From positions 2,598,830 through 2,662,829 of the forward strand of contig NZ_JOMH01000001.1 of the NCBI RefSeq assembly GCF_000711245.1: 64,000 nt of DNA, read 5' to 3'. Below are positions 13,190 through 49,644 of this stretch, in pieces (position 1 is the stretch's first letter; the number at the start of each line of letters is the position of its first letter). Made by a program: the position numbers and the translations under genes. The stretch comes from Polycyclovorans algicola TG408 (GTDB lineage: Bacteria > Pseudomonadota > Gammaproteobacteria > Nevskiales > Nevskiaceae). The notes under the pieces were generated by a model that did no database searches, was not told the DNA's origin, and saw nothing but the letters and a program-made list of their open reading frames with translations.

Positions 13190-13874
13190 GATTTTCTCCT
13201 CCTGCGCACTGCTTGGCGTCCTGCTCATGCTTCATTTTATTTCCATCGGCAGCCGGCCAAATACCCCACACGCCACTGATTCCTGCGAGCACGTTTTGAA
13301 CAATGTCTGTAGCCGGAATCGAAAGACGGGCCCATCAGCGCGGTCGAGACTACCCCAATGCCAAAAAACGGTTGACTTCCGCAGTCAACGCCGCGCCAAA
13401 CTCGAACGACTATAAAGATGCCCGCTTTCATTACCAACCGAGACGCCAACGTCCACAACCCGGCAGGTGCCGACTACCGGCACGCTGAAGCCAATGTTGG
13501 GTCTGCGTCTGCATTCTCAAAAAAAAGCTGATGAGCATTCTCGATACCGCGGCCCGTCGCGGCGTCGGCCCCTGTATCGACGCCGCTGTCATCCCGATGG
13601 ATTACGACCACCTGGCCAGATCTCAATCTTCTGAGGCGTCCCGACGTTCCCCCTTTCGTCATGTCCGGGTTGGCAAAGACATCACCCCATGTTTGCCCCG
13701 CCCTCCCTCCTCAGGGGCAGCCCACCCGGACCTGACGATTTTCTGATCACGCCTATCCCTTTCAGACCCGCGAGCAGGAAAACGTCTCCGCCATGAATCA
13801 CACCCTGATAACTGTGCCGTGCTGAGGTAGAAAAATTGGCACTCGGGGCCCCGTAATGGAAACGGGGTTACACG
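13190..13874. other. Gene-free stretch
   Basis: Open frames here are short, without ribosome sites and unlike known proteins on either strand. The base composition is less GC-rich in the middle (around 13380-13540) than in the flanking genes. I see no convincing promoter or RNA structure. It may be scar sequence left by the insertion and deletion that destroyed the OmpA-like gene to the right. Confidence 0.5.
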
Positions 13875-13925
13875 GTGAAGAAGTGACGGTTTACAGAAGA
13901 GCAGATTGCGTTCGACCTGCTGGCG
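13875..13925 (+). mobile_element. Scrap of an IS3-family transposase orfA
   Basis: The plus strand reads V-K-K-stop-RFTEEQIAF before diverging, which matches the first dozen residues of IS3-family OrfA (MKKSRFTEEQIAFAL) with one stop. Nothing else of the element is recognisable. It abuts the truncated OmpA-like gene. Confidence 0.55.
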
Positions 13926-13929
13926 GAGC

Positions 13930-14794
13930 TGAGAACTCCACTCCGTCGTGTTCCAGCGCCAGCAGTTCTCCGAATCTGTCAGCGACTACGAAGCCTGCAC
14001 CTTGTTCTGGTCACTGAACTACTTCCCGTCAACAGGAGCCGGCGCCGCCGGCACCGGCCGAGGTGGTCGAGCCCACCGACTCCGACAACGACGGCGTTCC
14101 GGACGACATCGACCAGTGTCCGAACACGCCGTCTGGCGAAGCGGTCGACAGCGTCGGTTGCCCCCTGCCGCCGCCCGCACCCCTTTGCGGTGAAGCCATG
14201 AGCGGCAGCGTGGCCTCTGTCGAAGGTTGCGACGTCGGCGAGTCCATCGTGCTTCGCGGGGTCAACTTTGCCACTGACAAGTCCAACCTTGATGCCAACG
14301 CGCGGACCCTGCTGGATGATGTGGTGGCCGACCTCAAAAACTTCTCTGACGTGGAAGTCGAGATCAGTGGCCATACCGACAGCCGTGGCGACGCCAGCTA
14401 CAACCAGAAGCTCTCGGAGCGTCGCGCCAACAGCGTCCGCGACTATCTGGTCGACAACGGCATCGCGGACAACCGGCTGAGCACCGTCGGGTACGGACTC
14501 ACCCGGCCTATCGGCGACAACGAAACCACCGAGGGTCAGGCCGAGAATCGTCGCGTCGAACTGCGCATCACCGGCGGCTCAGCGGTTCGTGGTGCAGCGC
14601 CGAGTGGCTCGTCTTCGCCCACCACGCCAGAGGCGGCCGAAGATTCGGCGCCAGCGGCCATTCCGGAAGACGAATCCGACGACACTTCGGACGATGTCGA
14701 GGCCACGCCCGAACCAGCGCCCGAGGCAACCACGGTTCCGGTTTCTGAGGACGACGACACGGACGAAGCCTTGGATGAGCTGTTCGACTTCTAA
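13930..14794 (+). pseudogene. OmpA-like gene copy C, barrel deleted
   Basis: From 14063 a 243-residue frame encodes a TSP3-type calcium motif (DSDNDGVPDDIDQCPNTP), a Cys-containing linker (PLCGE...VEGC), an OmpA peptidoglycan-binding domain (HTDSRG...LSERRANSV...NRRVEL) and an acidic tail ending DEALDELFDF. It is the third paralogue of the genes at 27351 and 45619. The beta-barrel half is gone. Only its last strand (TLFWSLNYFP, 13990-14026) survives, one frame off, directly after the IS3-type scrap. There is no signal peptide or ribosome site, so the product is unlikely to reach the envelope. Confidence 0.82.
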
Positions 14795-24755: not shown

Positions 24756-24888
24756 GATAACAAACAGACGTCATCAAGCAGGCAGAAAGTGTTCGGCATC
24801 GTTTCACGAGCACCCTCTGCTTTCCGATGTAATCGAGGGTTGCCAGCCCCAGCCCAGACGGGGCGGCAAATAAATGAGGAGTTACACC

Positions 24889-27270
24889 ATGTTCGATCCT
24901 TCCCGTCGCCTCGTGATCGGGGTTGCCGCCGCCATGTTCGCCTGCGGCGCACAGACGGTGTCCGCCCAGGCCACTGATCCGGTCGTCACTGACGAAGATG
25001 CCACGCCACCGGAGCCCGCGCCGCGACGCCGCACTGGGCTGCTAGAGGAAATCGTTGTCACCGCTCAGAAGCGCGAAGAGAATATCTCTGACGTGCCCAT
25101 CGCCATCCAGGCGTTCACGCCTGACGCGCTGGCCGCGCGCGGCATCGAAAACCAGATTGGTTTGATGCGGGCGGTACCCAGCCTCGACGTGGGCAGCCAG
25201 GCCGGCTACGCCACCATCTTTCTGCGCGGCATCGGCACCGAGGCGTTTCTGACCGCCGACCCCAGCATCGCCAGTTATGTAGACGGCGTTTACTTCCCGT
25301 TCTCACCGACTTTCATCCAGGATTTTGCAGGGGTTGAGCGGGTCGAGGTGCTGAAAGGCCCACAGGGCACGCTGTTCGGCCGAAACGCCGTCGGCGGCGC
25401 CATCAGTGTGACCAGTAAAGCGCCGGACTTTGAAGAACAGACCACGACCGTGGATGTCACGGCCGGCAACTTCAATCTGATCAAGCCGCGCATTTACACC
25501 AACATCCCGCTGTCCGACAACTTCGCCGTCAATGTGAGCGCCTACTACTCCCGTTCGGACTACCACCTTGACGGCACCTCCGGCGGCGAACCCCTGCGCG
25601 AGCAGATTGACGAGGGCGTGCGCATCAAGGCGCGCTGGATTCCGATGGACAACCTCGACCTGACAGCGGGCTTCACCCGCACCCGCAACCAAAACAACGG
25701 CGCCATAGGCCAGAACCTCAACCCCAGCCCGTTGGGTCAGGTCACGTTGATTCGTCCTCCCGAAGATCCCACGACGGTCAACGTCGACGAACGTCTCTAC
25801 GGCGTCTCCAACACGCAGTTGATCAGCGGTGAAGCCACCTACAGCGCGCCGTGGCTGGACATCAAACTGTTGGGCAGTGACCAGCAGAGCAGCCTGCTCT
25901 ACAACTACGACTTCGACGGCTCCAACCTGCCCTTGGTGTCTTTCGACGTGCCGGGTCACCCCGCGGACATTCAGCAGGGCGAACTCCAGTTGATTTCCAC
26001 CAACGGTATGCCTGGCAGCGACTGGCTTAAGCTCACCGGCGGGGTCTTCTACTTCCGCAACACGCAAGGTTTCGATCCGGTGGAGCTCACCGTCGGCAAC
26101 ATCAACCCCGTCGGCCCCATACTCAGCCCGATTCTTGGCGGGCTTAACCTTGATGACACCATCTTGGGTGATTTGACCGACCTCGATGGCCGCCTCTACC
26201 GCGTCCGCGCATCGGCACAGGTCAAAACCGAGTCCATCGGCTACTACCTGCAGGCCACCTTTGATGTCACCGACTGGTTCTCACTGACCCTCGGCGGCCG
26301 GTATCAGGACGAAGAGCGCGGTCTCGCCAAGTCCACCATCTCGGCGGTGGTTGGTGATTTGGACGTGGGTGAAACCTTCCTCGGCGGCCCGCCCATCGTC
26401 TGGACCATGGCGCGCGATGAAAACAACCGCGTGGTGCCGGGAACCGATACCACCAAAGGTTTTTTCCCCAAGGTGACGCTCGACTTCAAGCCTTTTGAAG
26501 ACAACACGCTGGTCTACATGAGCTACCAGGTGGCCGAAAAGGCGCACGCTTACAACGCGTTCGCCATCTATCTGCGGCCGCAGTACATTCGTCCTGAAGA
26601 AACCACGGCCTACGAAGTTGGCGTTAAAACCAACTTCTTCGATGGCCTGATGCAGTTCAACGCTGCGGCGTTTTACTACGACATCAAAGATATGCAGACC
26701 CAATACATCTCGCTGCTCTCCGGCGGCGCCCTGGCGTTTGAAAACGCGCCCGAAGCCGAGTCGATGGGCGTCGAGTTCGACATGGTCACGGCGCTTTTCC
26801 CGAATGTCCTCAACGGCGTGTCGCTGGCGGCCAACGCGGGCTACATTGACGCCACTTTTGGCAGTTATCCTAGAGCAGCAGGCTATAGCCCGACCACCGG
26901 CCTCTTCAGCCCGAACAACGATTTTTCGGGCAATCGCCAGACGCGTACGCCCGAGTTTTCGGGCAGCATCGCGCTGACCAAGATGTGGGAATTCGGCAGC
27001 GGCGAGCTCGAAATCGGCGCCGACTACTACTACAACAGCGGCTTCTTCTACAGCGCGTCAAATGACCCTGCCTACGAACAGGAGGACTACAACCTGGTCG
27101 GCGCTTACGTCAGCTACAACCATTTGCCGTGGGACATGAACGTTCGCGTGTTCGGCAACAACATCACTGACGAGTTTTATACCCAAGGGGTGATCTCGAC
27201 CGACTTCGGCGGCGTCTTCACCGTTGCCCAGCCGGCGATCTACGGCGTGCGCGTGACCTGGGAGTTCTGA
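24889..27270 (+). CDS. TonB-dependent outer-membrane receptor A
   Basis: The 793-residue protein has a signal peptide (cut near VSAQA), a plug domain beginning EEIVVTAQKREENISDVP, FLRGIG and VEVLKGPQGTLFGRNAVGG, and a 22-strand barrel ending in the aromatic VTWEF. These are the marks of the catabolite-associated receptors common in sphingomonads and related degraders. AGGAG before ATG 24889 sets the start; an ATG 15 bases earlier overlaps the ribosome site. It is followed after 80 bases by OmpA-like A. Receptor B at 47173 is a clear paralogue with the same partner. Confidence 0.95.
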   Translation: MFDPSRRLVIGVAAAMFACGAQTVSAQATDPVVTDEDATPPEPAPRRRTGLLEEIVVTAQKREENISDVPIAIQAFTPDALAARGIENQIGLMRAVPSLDVGSQAGYATIFLRGIGTEAFLTADPSIASYVDGVYFPFSPTFIQDFAGVERVEVLKGPQGTLFGRNAVGGAISVTSKAPDFEEQTTTVDVTAGNFNLIKPRIYTNIPLSDNFAVNVSAYYSRSDYHLDGTSGGEPLREQIDEGVRIKARWIPMDNLDLTAGFTRTRNQNNGAIGQNLNPSPLGQVTLIRPPEDPTTVNVDERLYGVSNTQLISGEATYSAPWLDIKLLGSDQQSSLLYNYDFDGSNLPLVSFDVPGHPADIQQGELQLISTNGMPGSDWLKLTGGVFYFRNTQGFDPVELTVGNINPVGPILSPILGGLNLDDTILGDLTDLDGRLYRVRASAQVKTESIGYYLQATFDVTDWFSLTLGGRYQDEERGLAKSTISAVVGDLDVGETFLGGPPIVWTMARDENNRVVPGTDTTKGFFPKVTLDFKPFEDNTLVYMSYQVAEKAHAYNAFAIYLRPQYIRPEETTAYEVGVKTNFFDGLMQFNAAAFYYDIKDMQTQYISLLSGGALAFENAPEAESMGVEFDMVTALFPNVLNGVSLAANAGYIDATFGSYPRAAGYSPTTGLFSPNNDFSGNRQTRTPEFSGSIALTKMWEFGSGELEIGADYYYNSGFFYSASNDPAYEQEDYNLVGAYVSYNHLPWDMNVRVFGNNITDEFYTQGVISTDFGGVFTVAQPAIYGVRVTWEF

Positions 27271-27350
27271 TCATGACCCTCATCCGAATTCTCAAGACCT
27301 CACGCCTGCGTCAACACGACGCCACGCCGCGCTTTGACAAGGATCACACC

Positions 27351-28700
27351 ATGAAACTCGCGTCCCGTTTCGGCGCTCTCACCGTCGCGCTCCTGGCCGG
27401 CAGCCTGATCACCGCCGCCCACGCCGAAGAAAGCAACTCTCCACTGCGCCAGGGCGCCTACGTGTCACCCATGGTCAGCGGCTTCTTGACCGACGATGAC
27501 GACGGTCTGGATGACGGCATCGGCGGTACGCTGGCCCTTGGTTACCGGAGCAGCTTCTATGCCTTCGAGCTGGCCGGCATCGGTGCCGATGTCGGCACCG
27601 CCACGATTGAGGGCATCGCGCTGAACACCCTGCTGTTCCCTTTCAGCGGGCTGCCCAACCTGTACTTCACGGCAGGCATCTCAGGCTTCAACTACAAGGA
27701 CTATGAAACGCCTTCCGGCGACCTGAAAGACTTCAACAGCAACAATGTTGATGGCGGCGTGGGCTACATTTTCCCGCTGAGCTGGGGCCGTTACGACTAC
27801 GGCATTCGCAGCGAAGTGCGCTACCGCGCCGGCCGCCGTGAGCGCGATTTCAATGACCTTGACATCGACATTGACGCACCACGAAGCCCCAACCACATCG
27901 CCTTGAACCTCGGTCTGCAATTGCCGACGCGCCTGGCGCCGGCGCCAGTGCCCGAACCCACCGAAGACCCCACCAGCGTCGTGCCGCCGACCGAACCGGT
28001 CGACAGCGACGGCGACGGTGTGGACGATGGTCGTGACCAGTGCCCCAATACGCCGCGGGGCGAGTCGGTTGACAGCGTCGGTTGCCCGTTACCGCCCCCG
28101 CCGCCTGACTGTGGCGAGGTTGTCAACGGCGGCGTGCCGTCCATCGAAGGCTGCAGCGAGGGCGACTCGATTGTCCTGCGCGGTGTTTACTTCGAAACCA
28201 ACCTGGCGCGGCTCGATGCCAATGCCAAGACCCTGCTCGACGACGTGGTCGCGGACCTTGAGAAATTTCCCGACATCGACGTTGAAGTGGGCGGCCACAC
28301 CGACAGCCGCGGCGCTGCTGACTACAACCAGGGCCTCTCTGAACGACGCGCCAACAGTGTTCTCGACTATCTGGTCAGCAACGGCATCGACGGTGATCGC
28401 CTCACCGCCAAGGGCTACGGCCTGACCGCCCCGGTCGCCGATAACGACACGGCCGAAGGCCAGGACCGTAACCGCCGGGTGGAGCTAAAAATCACCCGTG
28501 GCGAGGCCGTTCGTCGGGCATCGGATGAGGGCAGTTCAAGTCCGTCACCCACGCCGTCGGCAGTGGACGAAGACGCTGGCGCCGATGTTGACGCCAACAC
28601 CGATGAACAGAATCCGGTCAGCACGCCGGAACCCACCGCCGCGCCGTCGGCCGACGATCAGGACACCGACGAAGCGCTCGACGACTTGTTCGATTTCTGA
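27351..28700 (+). CDS. OmpA-like protein A: barrel, TSP3 motif, peptidoglycan-binding domain, acidic tail
   Basis: This 449-residue protein has a signal peptide (AAHA), a barrel of about 175 residues, and a Pro-rich linker. A calcium-binding type motif follows (DSDGDGVDDGRDQCPNTP), then two further Cys, an OmpA_C domain (GGHTDSRGAADYNQGLSERRANSV, NRRVEL) and an acidic low-complexity tail ending DEALDDLFDF. It probably ties the outer membrane to peptidoglycan. ATG 27351 follows AAGGA; an ATG at 27273 lacks a signal peptide. Its stop lies 43 bases inside the convergent transporter gene. Same arrangement as OmpA-like B, downstream of a TonB receptor. Confidence 0.9.
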   Translation: MKLASRFGALTVALLAGSLITAAHAEESNSPLRQGAYVSPMVSGFLTDDDDGLDDGIGGTLALGYRSSFYAFELAGIGADVGTATIEGIALNTLLFPFSGLPNLYFTAGISGFNYKDYETPSGDLKDFNSNNVDGGVGYIFPLSWGRYDYGIRSEVRYRAGRRERDFNDLDIDIDAPRSPNHIALNLGLQLPTRLAPAPVPEPTEDPTSVVPPTEPVDSDGDGVDDGRDQCPNTPRGESVDSVGCPLPPPPPDCGEVVNGGVPSIEGCSEGDSIVLRGVYFETNLARLDANAKTLLDDVVADLEKFPDIDVEVGGHTDSRGAADYNQGLSERRANSVLDYLVSNGIDGDRLTAKGYGLTAPVADNDTAEGQDRNRRVELKITRGEAVRRASDEGSSSPSPTPSAVDEDAGADVDANTDEQNPVSTPEPTAAPSADDQDTDEALDDLFDF

Positions 28701-29629
28701 TCGGGTGGTGGTGACCACGCGCCTGCCATTCCGGCCGACGAGTCGGCCGCAATGGCAGGGCGTCGGGTCAAAAGACTCACCGCCATGACCGATGCGAGGA
28801 TCAGTCCCGCCCCGCCCCACTGCAAGAGGCTCAGGCGCTCATCAAGAAAGAGCCACCCCAGGGCGATGGCCACTGCGGGACTGACATACAGGTAGCTGCC
28901 CAACATCGCCGGCGATGTGACCCTGATCAGCCAATACAGGGCTGAGTAGCCCATCACCGAGCCCACGATCACGAGGTACGCCAATGCCCACCACGCATGC
29001 TGGCTTTCGTACCAGGCCCCAACCGACTCACCCAACACCAGCGCGACGGTCAGCAGCATCACTCCGGCGGCGGCGGTCTGTAGCCCCGCATTCATCATCA
29101 CGCCACAGGTCACCGTGTGGCGCTTCTGGTAAACGCTGCCGGCGGCCAGGGTGATGCTGGCCAGCATCAGGGCCAGATATGCCGCCGGACTGCTGCGCTC
29201 ATCGCCATGCAGCGCACCACTCATGATCAGGGCCACACCGGCCAGCCCGAGCATCAGGCTGGCGACCAATGGCAGGCTGACCGCATCCCCCTTGTGTCCC
29301 CAACTGCCGAACCACGCCATCCACAGCGCCGCACTGGCAATGATGATGGCGGCCTCGCCACTGGCAGCCGACTGCAATGCCCAAGCGACCAAGCCGCCAG
29401 ACGCAACCGGAATGAGCAGCGCGCCAACCAGCAAGGCACGCCAGGACGAGCGGTCTTTCGGTGGACGGTCGCCAAACAGCAACGCCAACAGCAACAACAG
29501 CGGGCTGGCCAGCAGCAGGCGACTCGCGGCAAACAGCAGCGCGGGCGCATCCCGCACGCCGACCAGAATCGCCAGGTAACTCGAGCCCCAAGACAGATAG
29601 ACCGCCAATAACGCGACGGCCAGTTTCAT
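28658..29629 (-). CDS. DMT-superfamily (EamA) transporter
   Basis: The 323-residue protein has about ten hydrophobic segments in two EamA repeats, starting LAVYLSWGSSYLAI and with LGWLFLDERLSLLQWGGAGLIL near the end of the second repeat. This pattern fits drug/metabolite exporters of the RhaT/YdcZ-YedA type. It is divergent from the TetR gene with 81 bases between starts, a usual regulator-exporter arrangement. The C-terminal 15 residues overlap the OmpA-like A gene on the other strand. Confidence 0.88.
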   Translation of the reverse strand: MKLAVALLAVYLSWGSSYLAILVGVRDAPALLFAASRLLLASPLLLLLALLFGDRPPKDRSSWRALLVGALLIPVASGGLVAWALQSAASGEAAIIIASAALWMAWFGSWGHKGDAVSLPLVASLMLGLAGVALIMSGALHGDERSSPAAYLALMLASITLAAGSVYQKRHTVTCGVMMNAGLQTAAAGVMLLTVALVLGESVGAWYESQHAWWALAYLVIVGSVMGYSALYWLIRVTSPAMLGSYLYVSPAVAIALGWLFLDERLSLLQWGGAGLILASVMAVSLLTRRPAIAADSSAGMAGAWSPPPDQKSNKSSSASSVS

Positions 29630-29710
29630 CGATGATCCGCCGACACAACTCCTGACAAATTGGCCCGATCTGTGCACCGCATTGATCTTCTCAAGTTCAT
29701 AATCCACATC

Positions 29711-30376
29711 ATGAAACAAACTGCCGACTCAGCCCAGCGTCTACCCATCAAGCCACGCCCGACCCGAAAGACACGCGCCAAGAACGGTGAGCGCAAACCC
29801 AGTGTTGAAGAGCGCCTGATTGCCGCGACCGAGCGTTTGCTTGATCAAGGCCACAGTTTCGGTGCCTTGACCGTTGAACAACTGACCAGCGAAGCGGGCA
29901 TGTCTCGCGGCACCTTTTACTTGCACTTTCGCGACAAGGGCGAACTGGTTGCGCGGCTGATGAAAGTGGTGACCGACGAGATCGTGGTCAGCACCGGCAC
30001 CTGGCTTGCTCATGCCGAGAAGGCTGACCGCTCGGACATCATCGCCGCCGTTGATGGCGTCGCCAAGACCTTCCGTAAACACCATGCCATTGTCGCCGCC
30101 GTGAGTGACATGGCACCGCACGACAAAAACGTGGCGGGGCTCTATGAGCAGATGATGGACACCATCGCCCAGCATTGCCGCCGCTCGATGGCCATCGTCA
30201 AAAGCAAAGGCAAGAGTCGCGACGCCGCCAACAACGACGTGGCCGACGCGCTCGCGTGGATGATCCTGCTCTACTGCACCCGCTTTGCCGGTAAGCAGTC
30301 GGACCGTAACCTGAAGAAGATCACCCAGTCGCTGGGTTATATCTGCGTCAGCAGCATCTTCGCCGACGAGGCCTGA
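29711..30376 (+). CDS. TetR-family transcriptional regulator
   Basis: The 221-residue protein has a basic N-terminal tail, then the TetR helix-turn-helix (RLIAATERLLDQG...TVEQLTSEAGMSRGTFYLHFRDKGELVARL, about 33-80) and an all-helical ligand domain. ATG 29711 is preferred over an upstream TTG. It probably represses the divergent transporter and possibly the dikinase-receptor-OmpA genes, whose promoter carries a perfect palindrome. Confidence 0.9.
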   Translation: MKQTADSAQRLPIKPRPTRKTRAKNGERKPSVEERLIAATERLLDQGHSFGALTVEQLTSEAGMSRGTFYLHFRDKGELVARLMKVVTDEIVVSTGTWLAHAEKADRSDIIAAVDGVAKTFRKHHAIVAAVSDMAPHDKNVAGLYEQMMDTIAQHCRRSMAIVKSKGKSRDAANNDVADALAWMILLYCTRFAGKQSDRNLKKITQSLGYICVSSIFADEA

Positions 30377-45618: not shown

Positions 45619-47085
45619 TTAGAAGTCGAACAAGTCGTCGAGTGCCTCGTCGGTGTCATCGCTGCTATCACTTTCAGAGGCCGGCGCGGCGGTGGGCTCC
45701 GGGGTCGTTTCCGGCTCGGGCAAGTCGGCTTCCTCGGGCACCTCACTGGCAGGCGCATCGTCGGTCAGCGCGTCAAGACCACCATCATCGACCGGCGCGG
45801 GTTCGTCAGCCGGGGCCGCTGAGCCGCCGCCGGACGACCGCACGGCCGTCCCACCCACAATCCGCAGCTCGACGCGGCGGTTGCGGTCCTGACCTTCAGC
45901 GGTCTCGTTGTCGCCAATCGGCCGTTCAAGGCCATAGCCCACGGTGGTCAGTCGGTTCTCGGCAATGCCGTTGCCCACCAGATAGTCACGAACGCTCTTG
46001 GCACGACGCTCGGACAACTGCTGGTTGTAGTCGGCCGCCCCACGGCTGTCAGTGTGACCCCCAACTTCGACTTCGACGTCTTCGAACTCCTTGAGGTCAC
46101 GCACCACGTCATCGAGCAACGTCTGGGCATTGACGGTCAGCGATGCCTCGTTGGTGTCGAAGTTGACCCCCCGCAGCACGATCGAATCACCGACGCCGCA
46201 GCCCTCAAGCGACGGCACACCGCCATTGCTGACCTCCCCGCAGGCGGGAGGTGGCGGTGGCAACGGGCATCCGACGGCATCAACCTCTTCTCCGCGCGGC
46301 GTGTTCGGACACTGGTCCCGATCATCATTCACACCGTCGCCGTCACTGTCGACGACCACGGCAACCGGCTCAGGCGTTGGTGGCGGTGGCGGTGGCGGAA
46401 GCCCGCGCATCGGCATGTGCAGACCGACGTTCAGCAGGATGTCCTTGAACGTGTCGGGTGCTGCAATGTCGGGAATGTTGTCGCTTTCACGCTCAGTGAA
46501 ACGATCACTCAGCCGATACAGCGTCTCAACACGCAGCCCGTACTCGTAGTTGCCCCAGCGAAGTGGGTAGACGTAGCCAATGCCGCCCTGAACATTGGCG
46601 GTGTTGAAGCCATCGTTGCCTTCAACCGGGCGCGGCGAACGTTCAAACGGGTAGTCCTGGTAGCGCGAGGCGCCGACGCCCACCAAGCCGTAGAGGAACT
46701 GCACTGAGTCGAATGGATAGACCAAGACGTTGAAGATGAAATGGCCGAGCTTGACGCTGTCCTCGCTGTTGTAGCCAAAACCGGCTTCCAGGCCATAAAC
46801 CTGGTTGCGATAACCGAGCAGGGCATTGATGCCAGGGCCGCCGTCGAGGACCGGATCACTTTGTGAAAAACGATATTGGCCGAGCACCGCCCCGTACGAG
46901 CCGTCGAAAAGCGGACGATTGAGCAGGTCCACAACGTTACGAGCAGCGGCGCCTTGTTCGGCTTCGTTGCCACCGCCACCACCGCCACCACCGCCGTCGC
47001 CGTATTGCGCCTGGGCAAAACCCGGCAACAGAACGCTGCATGCGAGCAGCGCACTGGCACATGTTGTCAAACGAAATTTAGTCAT
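45619..47085 (-). CDS. OmpA-like protein B: barrel, TSP3 motif, peptidoglycan-binding domain, acidic tail
   Basis: This 488-residue paralogue of the protein at 27351 has a signal peptide (FAQA), then a mature N-terminus with nine consecutive Gly (YGDGGGGGGGGGN). A barrel, a poly-Pro linker, DSDGDGVNDDRDQCPNTP, two linker Cys, an OmpA_C domain (HTDSRGAADYNQQLSERRAKSV, NRRVEL) and an acidic tail ending DEALDDLFDF follow. ATG 47085 follows AGGGAACC. It lies 87 bases downstream of TonB receptor B on the same strand and is probably cotranscribed with it. Confidence 0.9.
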   Translation of the reverse strand: MTKFRLTTCASALLACSVLLPGFAQAQYGDGGGGGGGGGNEAEQGAAARNVVDLLNRPLFDGSYGAVLGQYRFSQSDPVLDGGPGINALLGYRNQVYGLEAGFGYNSEDSVKLGHFIFNVLVYPFDSVQFLYGLVGVGASRYQDYPFERSPRPVEGNDGFNTANVQGGIGYVYPLRWGNYEYGLRVETLYRLSDRFTERESDNIPDIAAPDTFKDILLNVGLHMPMRGLPPPPPPPTPEPVAVVVDSDGDGVNDDRDQCPNTPRGEEVDAVGCPLPPPPPACGEVSNGGVPSLEGCGVGDSIVLRGVNFDTNEASLTVNAQTLLDDVVRDLKEFEDVEVEVGGHTDSRGAADYNQQLSERRAKSVRDYLVGNGIAENRLTTVGYGLERPIGDNETAEGQDRNRRVELRIVGGTAVRSSGGGSAAPADEPAPVDDGGLDALTDDAPASEVPEEADLPEPETTPEPTAAPASESDSSDDTDEALDDLFDF

Positions 47086-47172
47086 GACTGGTTCCCTGAT
47101 ATGTCGTTTGGGTCGCGGCGCCTGCAGACTCCGGACGCCGCGCCCTGGTCGAATTGTTGGTTGCAAGTGGAC

Positions 47173-49644
47173 TTAGAAAGTCCACTGAAACTTGAGGCCC
47201 AGGATGCGCGGCGGCCCGAGAGTCGCCAACATGCCGGGGTCCAGAATCAGAGTGCCGGTGGTGTAGAACTCGTCGGTCAGGTTCTCGGCCGACAGCGTGG
47301 TCCGCAGGCGATACCGCTCCCAGTAATGGCTCAGCTGTGCGTTGACGGTCGTGTAGGCCGGCTGTTCATAACGCGGATCTTCAGAGGCCACATAGAAGAA
47401 GCCAGAGTTGTGGTAGACATTGGTGCTGGCCTCAAACGTACCACCGGGAATCAACCACACATTGGCCAGCGACACCGAACCGGAAAAGTCCGGCGTGCGG
47501 GTGACGCGGTTGCCGGTGTAATCGTTGAGGTTGTCGAGGAAGATGCCGGTGGTCGGGTCTTGACCGTCGCCGTTGGTGTACTCGGTGTATTCGGCGTCTA
47601 GGAACGCACCATTCACCGTCAGTGACAGGCCGTCGAACATGCTCGGGAACAGGTCCACGATTACGTCGAAGTCAAAGCCGATCGAACGCGCGTCACCGGC
47701 GACGTCCAGCGACAGTGCGCCACCGTTGAGCAATGAGATGAACTGCGTCTGCAGGTTCTCGATTTCGTAGTGGAAGATTGCCGCCGTGTAGCGCATCGAC
47801 CCTTCAAACAACGAACCCTTGATGCCCAACTCCACCGCTTGGATGGTTTCCTCCGGCACATAAGCCGGCGGCAGATAGAACGCAAAGGCGTTGAACGAGT
47901 GCGCCTTCACCGCTTCCTGTGCCGACAGGAAAATCAGGGTGTCGTCGTCAAACGGACGGAAGTCCAGTGAGATCTTCGGGGTGAACGCCCGAGTTGAGTC
48001 ACTGTCGGGCCGGAAGTTGTCGGTTGGAATACCGAGCGCCGTGCCGCCGCGCGCATCACGCGCCTGCTGCCAATCCAGCACCTCGGTCCGGAAGCCGATC
48101 TCGCCGGGTACGCCGACACGAATGGCGGTTCGCGAATCCAAAACGCCACGGAATTCATCTTGATAGCGGCCACCCAGCGTCAGCGAGAACCAGTCCGTAA
48201 TCTTAAACGTGGTTTGGAGAAACACTGACACCGATTCGGTTTCGACTAAGCCGGTGTTAGACAGCGCATAGCTGGGGAAACCGGCGGTGAGATCATCAAC
48301 CAACGGAATCGCCGGAAGCACCAAATCGGTACCCGCAACAACGATATCTGGAATCTCGACGAGACCCAGGAAAGTCTGAGCGCCCAGATTTTGAGGGTCC
48401 AGACCTCCAACAGTCAGTTCCACTGGGTCAAAGCCCTGATCGTTCTGAAAGAAGAAGGCGCCAGCCGTCCAGGTCAACCAGTCCGAGCCCCACGAGGTTT
48501 CGTTGGACAAAAACTGGATTTCGGCCTCGTTGATCTTGGCGTAGTGCCGATGCACGATGAACTCTGCAAATGTTTGCTCGCTACCGTCGTAGTCGTAGTT
48601 GTAAGGGTTGCTGTGAAGCTGCTTGCTCAAAATCAACTTGGTATCGAACGGTTCGGCATTGTAAATGGCCGTGACCGAGCCCACCAGGGAGCTCAAGTGC
48701 CCATACATATCGAGGTCGGTTTGCGGTGAGCGCGCACGTTCCTTGACCCCGTCTATGCCCAGGACCTGACCGAGCGGTGTCGGGTTAATGTTGGCCGCCA
48801 AGGTCGAGGTGCCCTCGCGCTTCGAGCCAAAGATCGTGGCGCGCATTTCCAGATTGTCGGTGGGAATCCAGCGGAACTTGAAACGACCGCTGAAGGTGGT
48901 CTTGGCCGGCACCGGCCCACCGGCGATGCTCGCGTCTTCGGACCATTGCTGGGCGTCGTACTCGTAAAATGCCGAGACGTTCATCGCAAAGTTGTCGGTC
49001 ACCGGCATGTTGGCAAAGATTGTCGTCTTGTTGATCGACAGATCGTTGCGGCTGCTGTAACTGCCGCTAAAGTTGTCGACCGTGATGCTGCGGTCATCAA
49101 AGTCGGGCTCTTTGGTGATGACGTTGATCGCACCGGCAATCGCATTGCGGCCAAACAGGGTGCCCTGCGGACCCTTCAGCACTTCGACGCGCTCAACGCC
49201 GCCCAAGTCTTGAATCAGCGATGGCGTGAAGGAGTAGTACACCCCGTCGACGTAGCTGGCGACGCTGGGGTCGGAGGTCAACCACGCTTCGGAGCCAATG
49301 CCGCGAAGGAAGACGCTGGCAAAGTCGCCGGCCTGTACGCCGAAGTCCAGACCTGGCGTGACCTTCATCAGGTCGAGCGTTGATTTCACACCGCGGGCAT
49401 CCAGCGCATCAGCGCTGAAGGCCTGCACAGAAATCGGCACGTCTGAAAGGTTTTCTTCACGCTTCTGCGCGGTGACCACTATTTCTTCAACCGACCGCGA
49501 CAACCGGCGCCGGGGTGCGGGCTCAGCCGCCGCATCGGTCTCGGTGTCGACTTCGGCCGCACTTGGCGCGTCGTCTTGGCCGTAAAGCGGCGTTAGCGCA
49601 AACGTCAACGCAGCTGCAACGCTGGCATGAACCAGTTTTCTCAT
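47173..49644 (-). CDS. TonB-dependent outer-membrane receptor B
   Basis: The 823-residue protein has a signal peptide (LTPLYGQ), a short acidic segment, then the plug EEIVVTAQKREENLSDVP, FLRGIGSEAWLTSDPSVASYVDGVYY and VEVLKGPQGTLFGRNAIAGAINV. The barrel ends in KFQWTF. Many blocks are shared with receptor A (for example QTQFISLLNGGAL against QTQYISLLSGGAL, and YHNSGFFYVAS against YYNSGFFYSAS), so the two are paralogues. GAGGAGGG precedes ATG 49644. A 344-base divergent gap upstream holds a palindrome and no gene. The ligand is unknown. Confidence 0.95.
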   Translation of the reverse strand: MRKLVHASVAAALTFALTPLYGQDDAPSAAEVDTETDAAAEPAPRRRLSRSVEEIVVTAQKREENLSDVPISVQAFSADALDARGVKSTLDLMKVTPGLDFGVQAGDFASVFLRGIGSEAWLTSDPSVASYVDGVYYSFTPSLIQDLGGVERVEVLKGPQGTLFGRNAIAGAINVITKEPDFDDRSITVDNFSGSYSSRNDLSINKTTIFANMPVTDNFAMNVSAFYEYDAQQWSEDASIAGGPVPAKTTFSGRFKFRWIPTDNLEMRATIFGSKREGTSTLAANINPTPLGQVLGIDGVKERARSPQTDLDMYGHLSSLVGSVTAIYNAEPFDTKLILSKQLHSNPYNYDYDGSEQTFAEFIVHRHYAKINEAEIQFLSNETSWGSDWLTWTAGAFFFQNDQGFDPVELTVGGLDPQNLGAQTFLGLVEIPDIVVAGTDLVLPAIPLVDDLTAGFPSYALSNTGLVETESVSVFLQTTFKITDWFSLTLGGRYQDEFRGVLDSRTAIRVGVPGEIGFRTEVLDWQQARDARGGTALGIPTDNFRPDSDSTRAFTPKISLDFRPFDDDTLIFLSAQEAVKAHSFNAFAFYLPPAYVPEETIQAVELGIKGSLFEGSMRYTAAIFHYEIENLQTQFISLLNGGALSLDVAGDARSIGFDFDVIVDLFPSMFDGLSLTVNGAFLDAEYTEYTNGDGQDPTTGIFLDNLNDYTGNRVTRTPDFSGSVSLANVWLIPGGTFEASTNVYHNSGFFYVASEDPRYEQPAYTTVNAQLSHYWERYRLRTTLSAENLTDEFYTTGTLILDPGMLATLGPPRILGLKFQWTF

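Follow-up and report, generated by a model that had tools for sequence, protein, structure and literature searches.

Three OmpA-like reading frames in the window, by which we mean the whole stretch of 64,000 nucleotides that was analysed, share the C-terminal end DTDEALD[D/E]LFDF directly before the stop codon. This tail is under purifying selection at the protein level and has been so for a long time. Among the genomes scanned it is lineage-specific and, judging from conflicting trees, it has spread between paralogues by recombination as part of a C-terminal module. We propose that it is probably a docking or recognition tag, and we give a probability of roughly 0.45 to the reading that it is a selected docking peptide with one common partner. 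The features concerned are the following.

24874-27270, plus strand: TonB-dependent receptor, directly 5' of copy 1.
27273-28700, plus strand: copy 1, OmpA-like protein (barrel, TSP3-like repeat, OmpA domain, linker, tail).
28662-28700, plus strand: tail of copy 1 with its stop, DTDEALDDLFDF and stop codon.
47173-49644, minus strand: TonB-dependent receptor, directly 5' of copy 2.
45619-47166, minus strand: copy 2, OmpA-like protein (more likely start at 47085).
45657-45619, minus strand: tail of copy 2 with its stop, DTDEALDDLFDF and stop codon.
14063-14794, plus strand: copy 3, 5'-truncated remnant (TSP3-like repeat, OmpA domain, linker, tail).
14756-14794, plus strand: tail of copy 3 (truncated gene) with its stop, DTDEALDELFDF and stop codon.

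Copy 1 more likely starts at 27351, before the signal-like segment MKLASRFGALTVALLAGSLITAAHA, and its model has a signal-like start and, at low confidence, eight barrel strands. Copy 2 likewise opens with a signal-like stretch, which is followed by a barrel region, the TSP3-like repeat, the OmpA domain, a variable linker and the tail. The OmpA domain (PF00691) scores 80.5, 81.9 and 89.8 bits in the three copies, against a cut-off of 27.2, and among solved structures the closest by sequence is the C-terminal domain of an 'Outer membrane porin F' (5u1h). The putative N-terminal barrel, the TSP3-like repeat linker and the peptidoglycan-binding OmpA domain are those of OmpA/OprF-type proteins, but here the gene lies directly behind a TonB-dependent receptor, and a long linker and a selected tail extend past the OmpA domain; we rate the intact copies as a lineage-specific form of this known kind of protein. 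The open frame of copy 3 (14018-14794) begins just 5' of the TSP3-like repeat. None of the frames further upstream encodes a readable signal peptide or barrel, so we treat this copy as a 5'-truncated remnant. The original prediction of an acidic tail in three OmpA-like copies thus holds for the tails, but only two of the proteins are intact and the third is a 3' fragment. Upstream of copy 3 (13840-14060) there is a stretch RFTEEQIAF that resembles the beginning of IS3-type transposases, and such an element may have caused the truncation; the upstream sequence found no match in plasmid DNA. Elsewhere in the genome, another OmpA-like protein (L009, genome positions 3340171-3340737 and downstream) carries a CxxCH segment after its OmpA domain, as in c-type cytochromes.

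Between the OmpA domain and the tail lies a linker of about 50-70 residues, which is variable, rich in acidic residues, Pro, Ser and Thr, and disordered according to structure prediction. When the three copies are aligned, the tail is invariant in 11 of 12 columns, the linker in 8 of its 41 ungapped columns (Fisher p about 1e-5 for tail versus linker) and the OmpA domain in 67 of 104, which agrees with the earlier description of a variable linker that gives way to a near-invariant end. When the residues were shuffled within each sequence, at most 4 of the 12 terminal columns became identical in 100,000 trials. The tail codons have accumulated at least 10 nucleotide changes, 9 of them silent, and the single residue that varies is a D/E exchange; in simulations of random changes, such a silent excess was reached no more than 5 times in 10,000 (p at most 5e-4). 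The OmpA domains of the copies are separated by synonymous distances of 1.3-2.1, which is near saturation, and by replacement distances of 0.16-0.22. Because the changes are mostly silent, the duplications old and the linker drifted, we conclude that the tail is held by selection, as had been claimed from the sequence at first. It is conserved within a region predicted to be disordered and is selected at the protein level, as would be expected of a docking short linear motif. The tail is a short acidic peptide whose hydrophobic points are Leu and Phe, with the free C-terminus DEALDDLFDF. In the AlphaFold models, which covered three sequences, its confidence is low; one model gives it a short helix and another does not, and since the models disagree we make no structural claim for it.

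The original prediction had also reasoned that, if homologues in other genomes lacked the tail, it would be only a feature of recent duplication. The homologues do lack it, but the copies are not recent duplicates: with synonymous distances of this size, recent duplication does not explain the shared tail, and the orthology of barrels and receptors likewise rules it out as the sole cause. A constraint could also come from a convergent minus-strand frame for an EamA-type transporter (28658-29719), which overlaps the 3' end of copy 1, tail included. It could act on copy 1 only and therefore cannot explain a tail found in three copies.

The history of the C-terminal part differs from that of the barrels. 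Between copies 1 and 2, identity amounts to 36% in the barrel, 84% in the repeat and 74% in the OmpA domain, and each barrel is nearer to barrels of other genera (43-45%) than to that of the other copy (36%). The two barrels belong to different orthologous groups and are not sisters in the tree (AU p 0.005), all three C-terminal modules fall into a single clade (100/100), and a grouping of these modules with the orthologues of their barrels is rejected (p 6e-6 and 7e-41), with the reservation that the p values are somewhat flattered, since the identities were already known when the tree groups were defined. This conflict between the barrel and C-terminal trees argues that the module, tail included, was exchanged between paralogues by recombination, and therefore that one module serves two different barrel-receptor pairs. 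A recent instance of the same exchange is found in the sister genome G023, where two OmpA genes with different barrels (L123, 1-1093, and L134) have 1100 bases in common at 95.8% identity, a tract that begins at the start of tonB, takes in the linker and the OmpA domain and stops near the barrel boundary. Three contigs of that genome end inside the repeated tonB stretch. Literature searches on receptor-linked OmpA operons or on module exchange returned nothing with the terms tried.

The tail has a very narrow distribution. It is absent from the 15 other OmpA-domain proteins read in the same genome, where a looser LFDF-end pattern matches the three copies and two other places only; the proposed check for the same terminus on other proteins of the genome thus gave no sign of a genome-wide motif. 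The tail is equally absent from every homologue read: the closest ones, in other genera, have Ala/Pro-rich linker ends or stop soon after the OmpA domain. Among 58 genomes of the family, the coding pattern [DE][DE][LF]FDF-stop occurs in this genome alone, at the three copies, and the 57 others are negative; among plasmid homologues, only distant OmpA proteins were met. The proposed test of conservation among homologues thus came out negative, and a family-wide OmpA tail is ruled out. Since the orthologues of other genera manage without it, the tail must be dispensable for the basic function of the protein, which counts against the docking reading.

In a wider scan of about 85,000 species, which took one genome per species, misses variants of the motif and may leave out the window's own genome and very near ones, the pattern [DE]x[LF][DE][DE][LF]FDF-stop gave 29 stretches, none of them OmpA-like when read in frame. 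The same scan brought up zinc-ribbon proteins from three unrelated phyla (L053, L065 and L070; PF13453, Zn_ribbon_TFIIB, confirmed for L053 and L070, L065 being judged by eye), in which a basic stretch is followed by [DE][DE]LFDF-stop, an ending that looks conserved within that family. Their last residues are nearly identical to those of the OmpA tail, but these proteins are small, come from other phyla, have the basic stretch before the end and show no apparent signal peptide, and the resemblance is likely due to chance or independent origin. Related proteins of Sulfurospirillum and Sulfurimonas (L051, L078, L079) have another acidic, Phe-ended terminus, EDD-A/S-F/L-DDFFDF-stop.

The link between OmpA-like genes and TonB-dependent receptors is not confined to this genome. 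Such gene pairs are also found in G023, G079, G063, G072, G020, G004 and G043; those nearest to the copy 1 locus are in G072, G063 and contig 17 of G023, and those nearest to the copy 2 locus are in G079 and contig 7 of G023. Like the barrels, the two receptors of this genome fall into different orthologous groups. In G079 the gene order is receptor, OmpA, TonB (PF03544) and then a frame that is ExbB-like by inspection only, with no Pfam match, and in G023 there are three instances of a TonB-like start 3' of the OmpA gene. No tonB lies behind copy 1 or copy 2. The two strongest TonB genes of the genome are elsewhere, and one of them adjoins a TPR-repeat protein with a signal-like start. In Vibrio vulnificus, a TPR-motif protein named TtpD2 is reported to be essential when the TonB2 system transports iron (PMC6957404). 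The window also encodes acyl-CoA dehydrogenases, short-chain dehydrogenases, an enoyl-CoA hydratase and electron-transfer reductases, and these enzyme genes would be consistent with a hydrophobic carbon source that is taken up and broken down.

In the docking that we propose, the barrel would be placed in the outer membrane and the OmpA domain would hold the peptidoglycan, while the disordered acidic and Pro-containing linker would present the free C-terminus in the periplasm. There the tail would dock, as we infer, to one common periplasmic partner and not to each cognate receptor, because the same tip on two different receptor-barrel pairs makes a common partner the more likely one. Our first candidate for this partner would be a shared component of the Ton system, either TonB or a periplasmic TPR protein encoded beside it. 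This is a guess from the gene neighbourhood, and a doubtful one, which we make because the OmpA genes are receptor-linked, because tonB comes next in two relatives and because the two operons here are without a tonB of their own. The arrangement recalls bacterial SSB, in which a disordered linker is followed by a short conserved acidic tip that ends in Phe and recruits partners. The likeness is one of working principle only, as the tail studied here is periplasmic, lineage-specific, made of other residues and carried by an unrelated protein.

The main rival to docking starts from the last three residues, F-D-F, which resemble the end of a porin: the C-terminal Y-D-F of Vibrio cholerae OmpU is described as recognised by the PDZ domain of DegS (PMC8359247). 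The tail could then be a ligand of periplasmic HtrA-family PDZ proteases, or of a tail-specific protease, that imitates the Y-x-F of unfolded porins and controls turnover or signals envelope stress. All three copies have F-D-F, with Phe for Tyr, and thus an aromatic-Asp-Phe at a free periplasmic C-terminus, and at least two members of the HtrA family have genes in this genome. The rival is weakened, however, by the lack of any match to DegS (TIGR02038) above the cut-off in this genome, the two best HtrA matches each having a second PDZ-like match, as is usual in proteins of the DegP/DegQ type. Moreover, the tail is exposed by a linker and is not the end of a barrel, so that the signal would be permanently on, and the selected part extends nine residues beyond the last three. 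We consider this explanation unlikely.

It is also improbable that the tail is a passenger, functionless in itself, of a C-terminal module whose copies in the paralogues are kept alike by recombination. Such a passenger would agree with the module exchange seen in the conflicting trees and in the recent case of G023, and with the homologues that do without the tail. Yet since the exchange the linker has fallen to about 40% identity and synonymous sites have come near saturation, while the tail is still 11/12 identical, and its changes among the three copies are mostly silent ones and not replacements. Gene conversion over a very short tract, confined to the tail, could mimic this pattern for copies 1 and 2, which are 92% identical in DNA over their last 37 bases, but not for copy 3, at 78%.

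That the tail binds the cognate TonB-dependent receptor, for instance a basic patch before the TonB box, seems to us quite improbable. Shortly before this box, both receptors carry EPAPRRR, in spite of their different clades, and their orthologues have other sequences there. This support amounts to seven residues in two proteins and is weak, and the receptors of G063 and G072 have basic clusters as well (KRRK, KRK), and the OmpA protein of G063 is tailless. Finally, a BAM-type insertion signal for the outer membrane, suggested by the terminal Phe and the Phe at -3, is hardly credible and had rightly been set aside at the outset, given the Asp at -5 (where the signal needs hydrophobic residues at -1, -3 and -5), the absence of a strand, the position about 60-70 residues past a soluble OmpA domain and behind a disordered linker, the ordinary barrel strands that end the neighbouring receptors (VRVTWEF, LKFQWTF) and the tailless homologues with related barrels.

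Returning to the docking peptide, a broader and tentative picture, which we hold to be less probable than not by a wide measure, would be that of an exchangeable periplasmic end on receptor-linked OmpA proteins, kept uniform within a genome by recombination, to which lineages add their own C-terminal tag; the tag found here would bring one shared partner, such as a Ton component, to several receptors. The finding carries a caution: when paralogues have a tail in common, the cause can be module exchange and not deep conservation in a family. Peptidoglycan-binding OmpA proteins encoded next to receptors suggest that some TonB-dependent receptors have dedicated anchors to the cell wall, and the recombining C-terminal module with its selected ten-residue tail offers a small handle for finding the partner.
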